From Alphaproteobacteria bacterium WMHbin7 (lineage in GTDB: Bacteria > Pseudomonadota > Alphaproteobacteria > Rhodospirillales > WMHbin7): a stretch of 64,000 nt of DNA. Numbering within the stretch: position 1 is the first letter of the stretch; each line of letters starts with the position of its first letter. The stretch is from positions 1 to 64,000 of the forward strand of contig PDZW01000007.1 in assembly GCA_002753155.1 (NCBI GenBank), in the 5' to 3' direction. A program made the position numbers and the translations under genes. Shown one piece after another: positions 21,521 to 44,899 of the stretch. The notes below the pieces were generated by a model. It saw only the letters and a list, made by a program, of their open reading frames with translations. It ran no database searches and was not told the origin of the DNA.

Positions 21521-22285
21521 ATGGCCAGAAGACGGCAGATTTATGAAGGCAAGGCGAAGGTTCTGTTCGAGGGGCCTGAGCCCGGGACGCTCGTGCAATA
21601 TTTCAAGGACGACGCCACGGCCTTCAACAACAAGAAGAAGGGCACGATCACCGGCAAGGGGGTGCTGAACAACCGCATCTCTGAATTTCTGATGATCAAG
21701 CTGGCCGAAATCGGCATTCCCACGCATTTCGTGCGCCGCCTCAATATGCGCGAGCAGCTGGTGCGCGAGGTCGAGATCATCCCGCTCGAGGTCGTGATCC
21801 GCAATATCGCTGCGGGCTCGCTGTCGCAGCGCTTCGGCGTTCCCGAGGGCACGTCCCTGCCGCGCTCGATCATCGAGTATTATTACAAGAACGACGAGTT
21901 GGGCGACCCTATGGTCAGCGAAGAGCACATCACCGCCTTCGGCTGGGCCAACACCCATGATCTTGACGAAATGATGGGGCTATCCTTACGCATCAACGAC
22001 TTCCTGACCGGCCTGTTCCTGGGCGTGGGCATCCGTCTGGTCGATTTCAAACTGGAATTTGGCAGGCTTTGGGAAGGCGAAGATATGCGCATCGTGCTGG
22101 CCGACGAGATCAGCCCCGACAATTGCCGTCTGTGGGACTTGAAGACCAACGAGAAGATGGACAAGGACCGTTTCCGGCGCGATCTCGGCGGTGTCGAGGA
22201 AGCCTATCAGGAAGTGGCGAGACGCTTGGGCATTCTGCCTGAAGGCGGCCCCAGGGACCTTAAGGGTCCCGCCACCATGCAATAA
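21521..22285 (+). CDS. purC: SAICAR synthetase (phosphoribosylaminoimidazole-succinocarboxamide synthase)
   Basis: A 254-residue enzyme joining aspartate to CAIR in purine synthesis. [18 protein letters not shown] at the start, plus [28 protein letters not shown] and the C-terminal [10 protein letters not shown], are diagnostic. The ATG at 21521 matches the family N-terminus better than the one at 21512. It is followed 14 bases later by purS. Confidence 0.96.
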
Positions 22286-22299
22286 GGGAGCTTTCGGCT

Positions 22300-22539
22300 A
22301 TGAAGGCGAAGGTGCATGTTACGCTGAAGCACGGCGTTCTCGATCCCCAGGGCAAGGCGGTTGGCCATGCCCTGGAATCCCTGGGCTTCAAGGGAGTAGG
22401 CGAGGTGCGGGTCGGTCGTTTCATCGAGGTCGAACTGTCCGAGAACGATCCCGCCAAGGCCAAGGCCGAGGCCGAGGATATGTGCCGCAAGCTTCTGGCC
22501 AACACCGTGATCGAGAATTTCTCGGTCGAAGTAATTTAG
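22300..22539 (+). CDS. purS: FGAM synthase subunit PurS
   Basis: A 79-residue small subunit of formylglycinamidine ribonucleotide synthase, which works with PurQ and PurL. MKAKVHVTLKHGVLDPQG and the ending VIENFSVEVI are typical, and length is normal. purQ and purL, which usually follow, are absent: the next item downstream is a 136-bp palindromic element whose terminal TAG provides the purS stop codon, then a convergent gene. Confidence 0.93.
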   Translation: MKAKVHVTLKHGVLDPQGKAVGHALESLGFKGVGEVRVGRFIEVELSENDPAKAKAEAEDMCRKLLANTVIENFSVEVI

Positions 22540-22676
22540 AGCGGGTCGTCTGAAATCGGAGCCGTATGGCGGCTCCGATTGAAGGCGTGAATCCGCTCTA
22601 CATACTTGTTTTAGCGAACGATTCACGTTTAGCCCCGAGTCACCCGAGTGACTCGGGGCTAAACGATCGTGCGCTA
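22537..22676 (-). repeat. 136-bp TA-flanked palindromic element, copy A
   Basis: One of two copies in the window. In minus orientation it aligns without gaps to copy B at 43884-44023, with about 118 of 139 compared bases identical. A 38-base arm (22627-22664) forms a perfect 17-bp stem with a four-base loop. A second compound arm has outer stem TAGAGCGG/CCGCTCTA and inner stem AATCGGAGCCG/CGGCTCCGATT. Both ends are flanked by TA, and the TA plus the element's terminal G gives the TAG stop codons of purS (plus strand) and of the convergent SpoIIAA-like gene (minus strand). It may also act as a two-way terminator. Confidence 0.85.
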
Positions 22677-23036
22677 AGCGCGGCCTTTGACCCAAATCCA
22701 GGCTTCGCGGCGCTCTTTGGCGGTGAAGTAGCGGACATCCGATTTGCTAAGCGCATTGAAGGCGACGGCTGAGGCCTTTTCCCAGGCCGTGTCGCCGATC
22801 AGGGCGCAGCGCTCGAAATCGTTCCAGTGGCGCACACCCAGAATGAAATCCTCCCAGGCGGCCCCCATCGTCATGCCCTCGAAGGCGGTCATGTCGATCA
22901 GGCAGCGCACGCATCCATGCTCGGCCACCAGGGCATCCAGATGCGGACAGAATCTTTTGTAATCGCCATCGGTAAGCTTGCCGACGACGCACAGGCTTAA
23001 GAAATTGCCTTGGCTTTCCGGCTGAATTTCGAACAT
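22674..23036 (-). CDS. SpoIIAA-like / STAS-fold domain protein
   Basis: A 120-residue cytoplasmic protein of the SpoIIAA-like family seen in proteobacteria. The pattern NFLSLCVVGKLTDGDYKRFCPHL, CLIDMTAFEGMTMGAAWEDF and RCALIGDTAWEKA fits this family, whose role is unclear. The start at 23036 is set by a GGAGG ribosome-binding site eight bases upstream of ATG. It is convergent with purS; its TAG stop overlaps the end of the palindromic element. Confidence 0.82.
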   Translation of the reverse strand: MFEIQPESQGNFLSLCVVGKLTDGDYKRFCPHLDALVAEHGCVRCLIDMTAFEGMTMGAAWEDFILGVRHWNDFERCALIGDTAWEKASAVAFNALSKSDVRYFTAKERREAWIWVKGRA

Positions 23037-23229
23037 GGAGCGCCTCCAGGCCACACCACCCGGGGGGATATTATCATAATTGATAATTTAGAGAGCCTGC
23101 AAAGATTGCGGAGCAGCTATTCGCCCAGCCGCTTCTTTTTGGATCAAGGGGATAAGGGCGACCTTGAGCCTTCGGGGCTTATCGGGCATTCTGTGCCACC
23201 TTATCCACAGACCATCAGGCATCCGGTCC

Positions 23230-24834
23230 ATGTCCGACAAGCGCGTATATCTTTATGACAGCACCCTGCGCGACGGCGCGCAGACGCAAGGCGTCGATTT
23301 TTCGGTGGCCGACAAGATCGCCATTGCCGCCGAGCTGGACCGTCTGGGCATCGACTATATCGAGGGCGGCTGGCCGGGGGCCAATCCCACCGACGACACG
23401 TTTTTCGCAAGTCTTCCAGCCCTCTCCAGGGCGCGCTTCACCTCGTTTGGCATGACGCGCCGCCAGGGCCGCTCGGCCGAGAACGATCCGGGCTTTCAAG
23501 CCCTGTTCGCACCGGGAATTCGCGCGGTCACCATGGTGGGCAAAAGCTGGGATTTCCAGGTCGAGGTGGCGCTTGGCATCGAACTGGCCGAGAATGTGCG
23601 CATGATTTCCGACTCGGTGGCCTATGCCAAGACCCGGGTCGATGAGGTGATGTTCGACGCCGAACATTTCTTCGATGGCTTCAAGGCCAATCCCGATTAC
23701 GCCCTGTCCTGCGTCGAGGCGGCCTATCAGGCCGGAGCGCGCTGGGTCGTGCTGTGCGACACCAACGGCGGAGCACTTCCCCACGAGATCGAGGAGATCG
23801 TGACCAAGGTCTCGGCCCGCGTTCCTGGAACACATCTAGGCATCCATTGCCATAATGACAGCGACAATGCGGTGGCCAACTCGCTGGCCGCCGTGCGGGC
23901 GGGGGCTAGGCAGGTGCAGGGCACGCTGAACGGGCTGGGCGAGCGCTGCGGCAACGCCAATCTGATCAGCATCGTGGCCAATCTGGTCTTGAAGATGGGC
24001 TATGAAACCAGCATCACGCCCTCGGACATGACGCGGCTTAAGCATGTCAGCCGGGTCTTGGACGAGCGCTTGAACCGCGCCCCCGACCGCAGGGCCCCTT
24101 ATGTGGGCGGCAGTGCCTTCGCCCATAAGGGCGGCCTGCATGTCTCGGCGGTCGAAAAGGACCCGCGCTGCTACGAGCATATCTCGCCGGAACTGGTGGG
24201 CAATCATCGCCATGTCGTGGTGTCGAATCAGTCCGGGCGCTCGAATATTCTGGCGACGCTGCGCGATCTGGGGGTCGATGTCGACAGCACCGATCCCAAA
24301 GTGGCCCGCATGCTGGAAGAGGTCAAGCAGCGCGAATATGACGGCTATGCCTATGACGGGGCCGAGGCCAGCCTGGAATTGCTGGTGCGCCGGTCCTTCG
24401 GCCAGGTTCCCGCCTATTTCGATCTGAAAAGCTTTCGCGTCATCACCAGACGCGAATGGCAGACGGATGGCAGCTTTGCTCTGGTCAGCGAAGCCACGGT
24501 CAAGGGCCGCGTGCAAGGCGATGATCTGATGGAAGTGGCCGAGGGCAACGGCCCGGTCAATGCGCTGGATGCGGCGTTGCGCAAGATGCTGCGCCCCTTC
24601 GCCGCCCATCTGGAGGATTTGAAGCTGGTCGATTACAAGGTGCGCATCTTTACGCCGGGAGCGGGCCCCGGCGACGGCACCGATGCCGTAACCCGCGTCA
24701 TGATCGAAAGTGCGGACAAGCAGGGGCGGCGCTGGTCCACGGTGGGGGTGTCCACCAACGTCGTCGATGCCTCGTTCGATGCGTTGTCGGACAGTTTTAC
24801 CTATAAGCTGCTTAGGGACGGCGCTTTGTCGTGA
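23230..24834 (+). CDS. cimA: Citramalate synthase
   Basis: A 534-residue enzyme of the LeuA/homocitrate synthase superfamily making citramalate from pyruvate and acetyl-CoA, the threonine-independent route to isoleucine. It shows LYDSTLRDGAQTQGVDFS, the metal-binding HCHNDSDNAVANSLAA and NGLGERCGNANL, and a C-terminal regulatory LeuA-dimer domain that typically senses an amino acid. The ATG at 23230 is used; an in-frame codon at 23164 would add improbable sequence. Its stop overlaps the GTG of trmJ. A homologous 2-isopropylmalate synthase is less likely given the DGAQTQG and GGWPGANPTDD signatures. Confidence 0.92.
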   Translation: MSDKRVYLYDSTLRDGAQTQGVDFSVADKIAIAAELDRLGIDYIEGGWPGANPTDDTFFASLPALSRARFTSFGMTRRQGRSAENDPGFQALFAPGIRAVTMVGKSWDFQVEVALGIELAENVRMISDSVAYAKTRVDEVMFDAEHFFDGFKANPDYALSCVEAAYQAGARWVVLCDTNGGALPHEIEEIVTKVSARVPGTHLGIHCHNDSDNAVANSLAAVRAGARQVQGTLNGLGERCGNANLISIVANLVLKMGYETSITPSDMTRLKHVSRVLDERLNRAPDRRAPYVGGSAFAHKGGLHVSAVEKDPRCYEHISPELVGNHRHVVVSNQSGRSNILATLRDLGVDVDSTDPKVARMLEEVKQREYDGYAYDGAEASLELLVRRSFGQVPAYFDLKSFRVITRREWQTDGSFALVSEATVKGRVQGDDLMEVAEGNGPVNALDAALRKMLRPFAAHLEDLKLVDYKVRIFTPGAGPGDGTDAVTRVMIESADKQGRRWSTVGVSTNVVDASFDALSDSFTYKLLRDGALS

Positions 24835-25610
24835 GCGTAACCTCCGGCACTGATCACACCAAAAAGAGCGCGCCAGATCCCCAAGCCCCCGCCGTCATTC
24901 TGGTGGCGCCGCAATTGGCGATGAATATCGGTACTGCGGCCCGCGCCATGGCCAATTGCGCCCTTTACGATCTGCGCATCGTGAACCCTCTGCCGCGCTG
25001 GCCCAACGAATTGTCGCGCCGGGCCTCGTCGGGGGCTGAATCGATTCTCGATCAGGCGCGCATTTGCGCCAGCACCAGCGAAGCCATCGCCGATCTTACC
25101 CGCGTCTACGCCACGACAGGGCGCACAAGGCGCATGACCAAGCGCATCGTAACCCCCAGACAGGCGGGTTTGGAGGCCAGAGAGGCCAGTGCTGTGGGCG
25201 AGAAAGTCGGATTTTTGTTTGGCCCGGAACGCACGGGGCTTGAGAACGACGATCTGGCCCTGTGCGACGCGCTGATCAATGTGCCCCTCAATCCCGCTTT
25301 CGCTTCGCTCAATCTGGCCCAGGCCGTGCTGATGGTGGGCTATGAATGGTTTCAGTCGGGCGATGCCACAGCGCCCAGCCGTCTGGCTTCGGGCGATTCC
25401 AAGCCTGCCAGCAAGCAGGAGCTGGAGAATTTCTTTTTGCATCTCGAGCGCGAGCTTGATCACTGTGGCTTTCTGCGCGTGGCCGACAAGCGCCCGACCA
25501 TGGTGCGCAATATCCGCAACATCTTTCAGCGGGCGGGCATGACCGAACAGGAAGTGCGCACCCTGCACGGCGTGGTGGCGGAATTGGTCAGGGGGCCCCG
25601 CAATCCATGA
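24831..25610 (+). CDS. trmJ: tRNA (cytidine/uridine-2'-O-)-methyltransferase TrmJ-like
   Basis: A 259-residue SPOUT methyltransferase that 2'-O-methylates position 32 of the tRNA anticodon loop. VILVAPQLAMNIGTAARAMANC, FGPERTGLENDDLALCD and the knot motif VPLNPAFASLNLAQAV are typical, and the C-terminal extension with LHLERELDHCGFL is characteristic of TrmJ. It starts with GTG overlapping the cimA stop (GTGA) and overlaps the next gene as well, forming a coupled series. Confidence 0.9.
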   Translation: MSVTSGTDHTKKSAPDPQAPAVILVAPQLAMNIGTAARAMANCALYDLRIVNPLPRWPNELSRRASSGAESILDQARICASTSEAIADLTRVYATTGRTRRMTKRIVTPRQAGLEAREASAVGEKVGFLFGPERTGLENDDLALCDALINVPLNPAFASLNLAQAVLMVGYEWFQSGDATAPSRLASGDSKPASKQELENFFLHLERELDHCGFLRVADKRPTMVRNIRNIFQRAGMTEQEVRTLHGVVAELVRGPRNP

Positions 25611-43091: not shown

Positions 43092-43757
43092 ATGCCCCCC
43101 CGCTTTCATCTTATCGGCGATGCCGCCCTGAATATCGAATGGCCCCAGGGTCCGCAGGCCAATGCGCTGGCCCGCGGCCTTCACGCCAGCCTGATGGCCG
43201 ATCCGCCCATTGGATACCAAGAAAGCCTGCCCGCCCTGCAAAGCCTTCTGCTGCGTTTCGATCCTCTGACAACCGATCCCCAGCAGCTTGAGCTTGCGCT
43301 GACAAAGCGCCTTCAAGGGCTTGCCTCCACAGTGCTGAAACCTGGGCGTCTGTGGCGCATTCCGGTCTGCTATGATCCAAAATTCGGTCTGGATATCGAG
43401 GCTCTGGCCGCCGCCAAGAAAATGACCCCCGAAAGGCTGGCGGAACTTCATGCCGCAAAAACCTATACGGCGCTGTTTTTAGGATTCCTGCCGGGTTTTG
43501 CATATCTGGGCGGCTTGGACGAAGCCTTGACGGCGCCGCGCCACGATATGCCAAGAACAAAAGTGCCCTCGGGCTCGGTTGCCCTGGCGGGCGAATTGAC
43601 CGCCATTTATCCTTTGGAAAGCCCCGGCGGCTGGCAGATCATTGGCCGGACGCCAGTTAAAATGTTCGATGTGGCAAGGCCTGAACACAGCCTTCTGGCG
43701 CCCGGTGACGAAATTCAATTTTTCCCCATCACGCTTGCAGCCTTCGCATCGTCATGA
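43092..43757 (+). CDS. pxpB: 5-oxoprolinase subunit B (KipI-like)
   Basis: A 221-residue subunit of the ATP-dependent 5-oxoprolinase PxpABC, which opens pyroglutamate to glutamate. The cyclophilin-like fold shows LGFLPGFAYLGGLDEAL and KVPSGSVALAGELTAIYP. The stop overlaps the pxpC start (ATGA). All three subunits are encoded here in the order B, C, A. Confidence 0.94.
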   Translation: MPPRFHLIGDAALNIEWPQGPQANALARGLHASLMADPPIGYQESLPALQSLLLRFDPLTTDPQQLELALTKRLQGLASTVLKPGRLWRIPVCYDPKFGLDIEALAAAKKMTPERLAELHAAKTYTALFLGFLPGFAYLGGLDEALTAPRHDMPRTKVPSGSVALAGELTAIYPLESPGGWQIIGRTPVKMFDVARPEHSLLAPGDEIQFFPITLAAFASS

Positions 43758-44899
43758 CGCTGCTGGTTCGCCAACCCGGTCTTATGACCAGCTTGCAAGA
43801 CCTTGGGCGCCTGGGGCATCTGGCCCAGGGCGTTCCACCTTCGGGAGCGCTCGATTGCGAAGGCTTGATGCTGGCCAACGCGCTAGCGCAGGATCGTTTA
43901 ACTCCGAGTCACCCCGGTGACACGGAGTTAAACGTGAATCCTTCGCTAAAACAAATTTCTAGAGCGGATTCACGCCATCAATCGAAGCCGTTTAATGGCT
44001 TCGATTTCAGGCGACCCGCTCTAGCGGGCAACAGCCAGGATACTGTCGCGCTGGAAATGATCGGCCACGGCCCAACGCTGGAGGTAGAGGCCAATTCGCT
44101 ACGCATCGCCCTGGTGGGGTTCGTTCAGGCCAGCCTGGATGGAAAACCTCTGGCCTCCTGGCGCTCGCATCTGCTGAGGAAGGGTCAGCTTCTCAAGCTG
44201 GGGCCGGTCGAGCAGGGTCATGTCGCCTATCTGGCGGTGGCGGGCGGCTTCGATGGGCCTTTGGTTCTGGGCAGTCGCTCCACCTATCTTCGGGCGGGCG
44301 TGGGACTTAAGCTGGAGCCAGGAAAAAAGCTTGCGACGCATCTGGGAGATGCGCCATCCGGCCCTCTATTGCAGATGGCCGTTCCTTCCAACTGGATTTG
44401 CCCAAGCTTGCGCGTTGTCGAGGGGCCGGAAATAGGAATGCTGGGCAAAGCGGCGCGGGATGATTTTTTCAAGGCCAAATGGCGGATTTCGGATCAGGCC
44501 GACCGCATGGGCATCAGGCTGGATGGTCCCAGGCTGGCGCACAGTCAAAAATCGGAAATCGCGCCCTCAGGGCTGGTGCGGGGCTGCATTCAAGTGCCGG
44601 GCGACGGGCGGCCCATACTTTTGCTGGCCGATCATCAGACCACGGGCGGCTATCCCCGCGTCGCCTGCGTCATCACGGCCGACCTGCCCTTGGCCGGGCG
44701 TTTGGCGCCAGGAAGCGAAATCTGTTTCGAATGCGTCACTTGGGCCGAGGCAAAAACGGCACTGGCGGATAGAAAAGCAGCCTTTCAGGCCTTGCTGTCC
44801 TCGATCCGGCCAATCCCGGGGCTTGACCTCGATGCCCTCTCGGGGGTCAATTTGGTGTCGGGCGCGGTGGATGCGCTTGCCTTGGACGATATGCCATGA
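43754..44899 (+). CDS. pxpC: 5-oxoprolinase subunit C with an in-frame palindromic-element insertion
   Basis: A 381-residue subunit, longer than the 310 residues of E. coli PxpC. Residues about 45-90 are entirely encoded by the palindromic element at 43884-44023. Removing those 46 residues joins LANALA directly to GNSQDTVALEM, which lines up with the E. coli sequence LVGNDANAPALE. The rest of the protein shows normal family features: HVAYLAVAGGFDG, DQADRMGIRL and TTGGYPRVACVITADL. Whether the insert impairs activity is unknown; the frame stays open throughout and the operon overlaps are intact, so the gene may still work. Confidence 0.9.
   Translation: MTLLVRQPGLMTSLQDLGRLGHLAQGVPPSGALDCEGLMLANALAQDRLTPSHPGDTELNVNPSLKQISRADSRHQSKPFNGFDFRRPALAGNSQDTVALEMIGHGPTLEVEANSLRIALVGFVQASLDGKPLASWRSHLLRKGQLLKLGPVEQGHVAYLAVAGGFDGPLVLGSRSTYLRAGVGLKLEPGKKLATHLGDAPSGPLLQMAVPSNWICPSLRVVEGPEIGMLGKAARDDFFKAKWRISDQADRMGIRLDGPRLAHSQKSEIAPSGLVRGCIQVPGDGRPILLLADHQTTGGYPRVACVITADLPLAGRLAPGSEICFECVTWAEAKTALADRKAAFQALLSSIRPIPGLDLDALSGVNLVSGAVDALALDDMP
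43884..44023 (+). repeat. 136-bp TA-flanked palindromic element, copy B, inside pxpC
   Basis: Second copy of the element, in plus orientation within pxpC. Its first arm (43896-43933) is an 11-bp plus 5-bp stem interrupted by one A-A mismatch. The second has outer stem CTAGAGCGG/CCGCTCTAG (from 43959 and 44016) and inner stem AATCGAAGCC/GGCTTCGATT (43980-43989 and 43997-44006). Flanking TA at 43884-43885 and 44022-44023 lies inside a longer direct repeat CTAGCG (43883 and 44021), 138 bp apart, an exact multiple of three. Five of six reading frames contain stops; the open one is the one read by pxpC. Confidence 0.88.

Follow-up and report, generated by a model that had tools for sequence, protein, structure and literature searches.

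The element at positions 22537-22676 of the window (the whole stretch of 64,000 nucleotides analysed here) is one copy, referred to as copy A, of a dispersed family of repeats that insert at TA, preferably within CTAG, and duplicate the TA only. Taken as a whole, the data are probably best explained by a non-autonomous, TA-inserting, MITE-like element, copy A of which was inserted into a TA shared by the stop codons of two convergent genes.

Copy A and its flanking genes

The first-pass annotation placed copy A between purS and a convergent SpoIIAA-like gene, and the sequence, the open reading frames and the Pfam profiles agree with this placement (E = 1.2e-32 for PurS and E = 2.9e-25 for the SpoIIAA-like protein). 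The features of the region are as follows.

22300-22539, plus strand: purS (open reading frame, Pfam PF02700); its stop TAG at 22537-22539 is the TA target plus the element G
22537-22676, plus strand: copy A, comprising both target TAs and 136 element bases (22539-22674), as defined by shared ends and by empty sites elsewhere
22537-22538: left target TA of copy A, bases 1-2 of the purS stop (duplication shown at other copies)
22537-22600, plus strand: arm 1 hairpin (fold; covariation on 30 copies)
22589-22593: GANTC site GAATC, intact in 28/30 copies
22610-22677, plus strand: arm 2 hairpin (fold; covariation on 30 copies)
22620-22624: GANTC site GATTC, intact in 30/30 copies
22650-22654: GANTC site GACTC, near the arm 2 loop, intact in 26/30 copies
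22675-22676: right target TA of copy A, bases 1-2 of the SpoIIAA-like stop on the minus strand
22674-23054, minus strand: SpoIIAA-like gene (open reading frame, Pfam PF11964); its stop TAG at 22676-22674 is the TA target plus the element G

The terminal TAGs of the element had been described as the stop codons of both genes. Their positions are exact, but the element supplies no more than the G of each; the TA is duplicated target. They had also been described as reading TAG outward, whereas on the strand of each gene the TAG reads inward, into the element. The left end of copy A is T-TA-G and the right end is C-TA-A. When copy A is excised in silico the sequence becomes GTA ATT TAA GCG, so that purS would close with TAA and the convergent SpoIIAA-like frame, read on the opposite strand, with GCT TAA, and the two would overlap by 4 bases (TTAA). 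In view of this overlap, there was most likely no intergenic region for the element to replace, contrary to the earlier suggestion that it had replaced all of it.

The comparison of purS 3' ends in relatives, proposed at the first pass, gave orthologs of 79 aa in congeners which end at the same codon, with stops TAA, TGA and TGA and never TAG, so the outcome named at the first pass as refuting did not occur. Orthologs of the SpoIIAA-like gene are present in three congeners. We also note that in G004, a genome of the same family, a PurQ-like frame comes after purS, the usual operon arrangement; in this genome, as in G001 and G003, that place is taken by a convergent gene.

The element family

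When searched against the genome that contains the window (2.98 Mb, 87% complete), the element matched about 40 places, most of them whole copies, with E values for the other copies down to 1e-46, certainly more than chance would give. The TA-to-TA unit is mostly 138 bases long, as it is in copy A. When aligned in one orientation, with a slash marking the boundary between target and element, the copies read nTA/GAGCRGRTCG...hairpin...GTGAATCYGCTCT-linker-TTTTAGCGAACGATTCACG...hairpin...CGATCSTGCGC/TAn, and the ends read TAGAGCGGATCG...GATCGTGCGCTA. The outer bases beside the TA are variable; the inner G and C are near-constant across copies. The two ends share only a short terminal similarity with each other.

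The RNA fold of copy A has z scores of -10.9 on the plus strand and -11.1 on the minus strand relative to shuffles. Pairing within the arms is borne out by covariation among 30 copies: double-changed cells number 62, compared with 15 in shuffles, and the signal is lost when the pairing is shifted by a single base. The element carries 3.15 GANTC sites per copy compared with 0.57 in shuffles, and a RAMA-domain methylase is encoded in this genome. Both the folded arms and the GANTC sites are probably under selection, perhaps for mobility or for its control by methylation.

Other families of the order and class carry diverged relatives whose arm sequences differ; the named records include Tistlia, Aquibaculum, an uncultured Rhodospira and Rhodospirillaceae bacterium LM-1. 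Relatives of 108 to 119 bases were picked up by the model used to search for the element. No Rfam family matched the element at gathering score, and the plasmid and phage collections gave no match. A second, unrelated dispersed repeat of about 75 bases (...GGCAAGGCCCGCGCGCAAACCTCCTGGTTTGCG...) is found dozens of times in this genome and in the congeners; L118 and L091, both copies of the element, lie within or beside it.

Target site and mode of insertion

The mode of insertion was established by joining the flanks of individual copies and searching for the empty sites in congeners. The site of L007 is empty in G001, where it reads ...GACGCTAA... at 97% identity, with CTAA in the relative; the filled site reads ...GACGCTA/G...C/TAA.... 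Comparison of the two shows that TA alone is duplicated and that G and C are bases of the element. L093 and L098 have empty sites in G003, each with a single CTAG. Orthologous sites free of the element were likewise found for L026, L002, L100 and L106; in these the target bases have since changed.

Among 69 independent copies from all genomes in which both TAs are intact, the target was CTAG in 41, TTAG in eight, ATAG in six, TTAA in five, CTAA in four and some other sequence in the remaining five. The 41/69 share of CTAG compares with 5.2% of the non-coding TAs in this genome (p about 1e-34).

Two other descriptions of the target were rejected. A 4-bp YTAR duplication of the IS5 kind is ruled out, the outer bases on the left and right varying independently (for example, TTAG...CTAA); it is also contradicted by L007, in which the empty site is CTAA or CTAA-like and the filled left end is CTAG. 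A general preference for terminator loops or inverted repeats was discarded, flank complementarity being no higher than in shuffles. Three or four copies in this genome nevertheless look as though they had been inserted into a terminator loop or inverted repeat. Some copies, such as L006, L010 and L015 at about 1500, occupy the loop of what looks like a Rho-independent terminator or a perfect palindrome. With the element removed, L006 reads CGCCTCGGCTTTAGGCCGAGGCGTTTTTT.

Origin of copy A

On the interpretation that we favour, purS (...ATT TAA) and the SpoIIAA-like gene (...GCT TAA on the other strand) would originally have overlapped by TTAA with one shared TA, and the predicted element-free join is ...GAAGTAATTTAAGCGCGG.... 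A single insertion into this TA would have given both genes a TAG stop and placed the whole unit between them, which would explain why both stops are TAG and why there are no further intergenic bases. A TA shared between stops was present in 5/61 convergent pairs sampled from 464 kb of this genome. Against this interpretation, the chance of hitting a TA common to two stops is low, at about 0.3 to 1.3% of targets. Stops on both sides were observed for 2/20 copies in this genome and 2/81 overall, against an expectation of about 0.3% per copy. For the second two-sided copy (L030), one of the two genes has no detectable homolog in congeners.

As no DDE_3 transposase was found in this genome or in its congeners, the mobiliser can only be inferred; movement may have been driven in trans by a transposase of the IS630/Tc1-mariner type that is now lost or absent from the assembly. 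A search for an autonomous parent element found none, and the partial matches were also without an autonomous copy.

An empty site for copy A itself was not found in G001 or G003, in which the gene order differs. In both genomes a distance of about 40 kb separates purS from the SpoIIAA-cimA block, and the two lie in other surroundings and on the same relative strands. The block (22692-25588 here) lies between purS and the following genes in this genome; in the two congeners it is found beyond those genes, which amounts to a relocation of about 2.9 kb.

Copy A thus sits at a synteny breakpoint, and recombination between copies is a possible origin. Two copies, one at the purS stop and one at the SpoIIAA-like stop, would have recombined, the DNA between them being removed or moved, and the TA would never have been shared. 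Besides the breakpoint and the distance of about 40 kb between the genes in G001 and G003, this account gains from the fact that copies on a single stop are common, which makes two such copies not improbable. Against it, neither gene has a copy at its end in G001 or G003, a single deletion leaves unexplained the change of neighbour on the other side of the SpoIIAA-cimA block, and copy A carries no visible footprint of recombination. We regard such an origin as unlikely and prefer insertion into a shared TA.

It had also been suggested that the element could end transcription in both directions, and retention as a bidirectional terminator or as a stabiliser of 3' ends would suit the very stable hairpins that occur on both strands, exactly between convergent gene ends, with arms that covary. 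Hairpin stability is by itself uninformative on termination, however, and no terminator-like site was found in 22250-22950, with no T-tract after either arm. Other copies lie within genes, and some occupy the hairpin of an apparent terminator. A role of this kind is thus very improbable as the explanation of copy A.

That the TAG ends are just a fixed consensus, the use of stops at copy A being unrelated to the mode of insertion, fits the background rate of stop overlap in this genome (3/20 against 17%), but is scarcely credible given the empty sites, which identify TA as the target and show stops conserved through insertion, and the excess of copies on stops in other Rhodospirillales described below.

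Reuse of stop codons

Since the element opens with G on either strand, a target TAA or TAG becomes TAG at the same codon. For one congener copy (L104) the filled gene ends ...RLKAVED-TAG and the empty ortholog ends ...RLKAAED-TAA; for another (L113) the corresponding ends are ...GVQVPA-TAG and ...GVQVPA-TGA. These element-free orthologs, which stop at the same codon, bear out the first-pass proposal that a mobile palindrome of this kind can land at gene ends without harm. The rule accounts for the harmless build-up of a mobile hairpin at the ends of genes.

We surveyed stop overlap among non-genic copies with enough flanking sequence; the rates are approximate, since gene calling relied on a simple codon model that the window had been used to train. 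Such a check of other copies had been asked for by the first-pass annotation. A gene's own stop was occupied by 28/81 copies, compared with about 17% expected. In the window's own genome, a stop was occupied on at least one side by 3/20 copies against 17% expected, about the background from target choice. The congener loci contributed 2/7 copies on stops, and the remaining loci, mostly from other Rhodospirillales, 23/54 (16.5% expected, p=6e-6). The excess may reflect survival rather than targeting.

A broader reading can be offered tentatively, and we hold it to be rather doubtful: the CIR-like family may survive at, or target, native stops preferentially, with the TA and invariant G rebuilding the stop in one phase, another phase supplying an open frame that adds about 46 residues, and GANTC methylation perhaps controlling movement. 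If so, the palindrome would be shaped for tolerance both at gene ends and inside genes.

Each copy on a stop codon places a very stable hairpin at the stop, and effects on the termination of translation and on mRNA decay become testable. Arm 1 of copy A begins at the purS stop codon itself; according to work cited in PMC5082802, a REP hairpin lying no more than 15 nt from a stop causes ribosomes to stall.

Copies inside genes

A second copy in the window, copy B, lies in frame inside a PxpC/KipA-like open reading frame (43754-44899).

43884-44023, minus strand: copy B, an 85%-identical inverted repeat of copy A

It adds 46 codons in frame to this carboxyltransferase gene. The consensus of the element has one open frame (LAHDRLTPSHSGDSELNVNRSLKQIGRADSRLQSKPFNGFDFRRPAL, minus strand), which is kept by 13/31 copies. 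Four further copies in this genome (L002, L005, L019 and L026) are in frame in conserved genes, and for L026 and L002 orthologs without the element were found. The in-frame hosts other than that of copy B include an aminopeptidase P-like peptidase, an N-formylglutamate amidohydrolase and a dihydropteroate synthase; in a histidine kinase gene the in-frame copy uses the plus-strand frame.

Comparison with known repeats

The nearest known kind appears to be the CcrM-associated intergenic repeats (CIR) of alphaproteobacteria. We term the element CIR-like rather than CIR since the likeness is one of described features. As outlined in a 2008 review (PMC2229807) that covers Chen and Shapiro 2003, CIR occur in Caulobacter, Brucella and other alphaproteobacteria and have two arms and a linker, TA ends, GANTC sites and a length of about 110 bases. 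The element is likewise alphaproteobacterial and dispersed, with two hairpin arms, a linker and TA at both ends; it has conserved GANTC sites, one near a hairpin loop, and a host that, like Caulobacter, encodes a RAMA-domain methylase. It differs in length (138 bases), the CIR length being a description in the review and not clearly a criterion. It also has copies inside genes and one open frame, whereas the review gives, as an unpublished statement, that CIR are absent from genes and have stops in all six frames; this too is not clearly a criterion. The target duplication is TA for the element, whereas the review lists that of CIR as unknown and their mobility as an open question. If the element belongs to the CIR kind, its empty sites, TA/CTAG target and in-frame copies would reveal how CIR insert.

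Insertion at TA with duplication of TA is established for ISY100 of the IS630 family (PMC2170065), and a target TA in CTAG is given for IS630 by the title of Tenzen and Ohtsubo 1991, cited in the same paper; the preference of the element for CTAG agrees with what is reported for IS630. RUP and other MITEs that are flanked by TA and moved by transposases of the IS630 family resemble the element in being small and structured, without a transposase gene and with TA duplicated. The element differs in that no partner IS was found and that it forms two separate hairpins, not one long end-to-end inverted repeat.

The Rickettsia palindromic elements (RPE) are, like the element, palindromic and in frame in conserved protein genes, to which they add about 46 residues (PMC10969869). 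The element, in contrast, has free-living Rhodospirillales relatives as hosts, and many of its copies are intergenic or at stop codons; its sequence and target appear to differ from those of RPE as far as tested. Finally, the MITEs QMITE1 and QMITE2 of Coxiella burnetii also reach a few bases into functional genes at their 3' ends, but they alter the C-terminus, whereas the element keeps the position of the stop, in copy A on both sides (PMC5896051).
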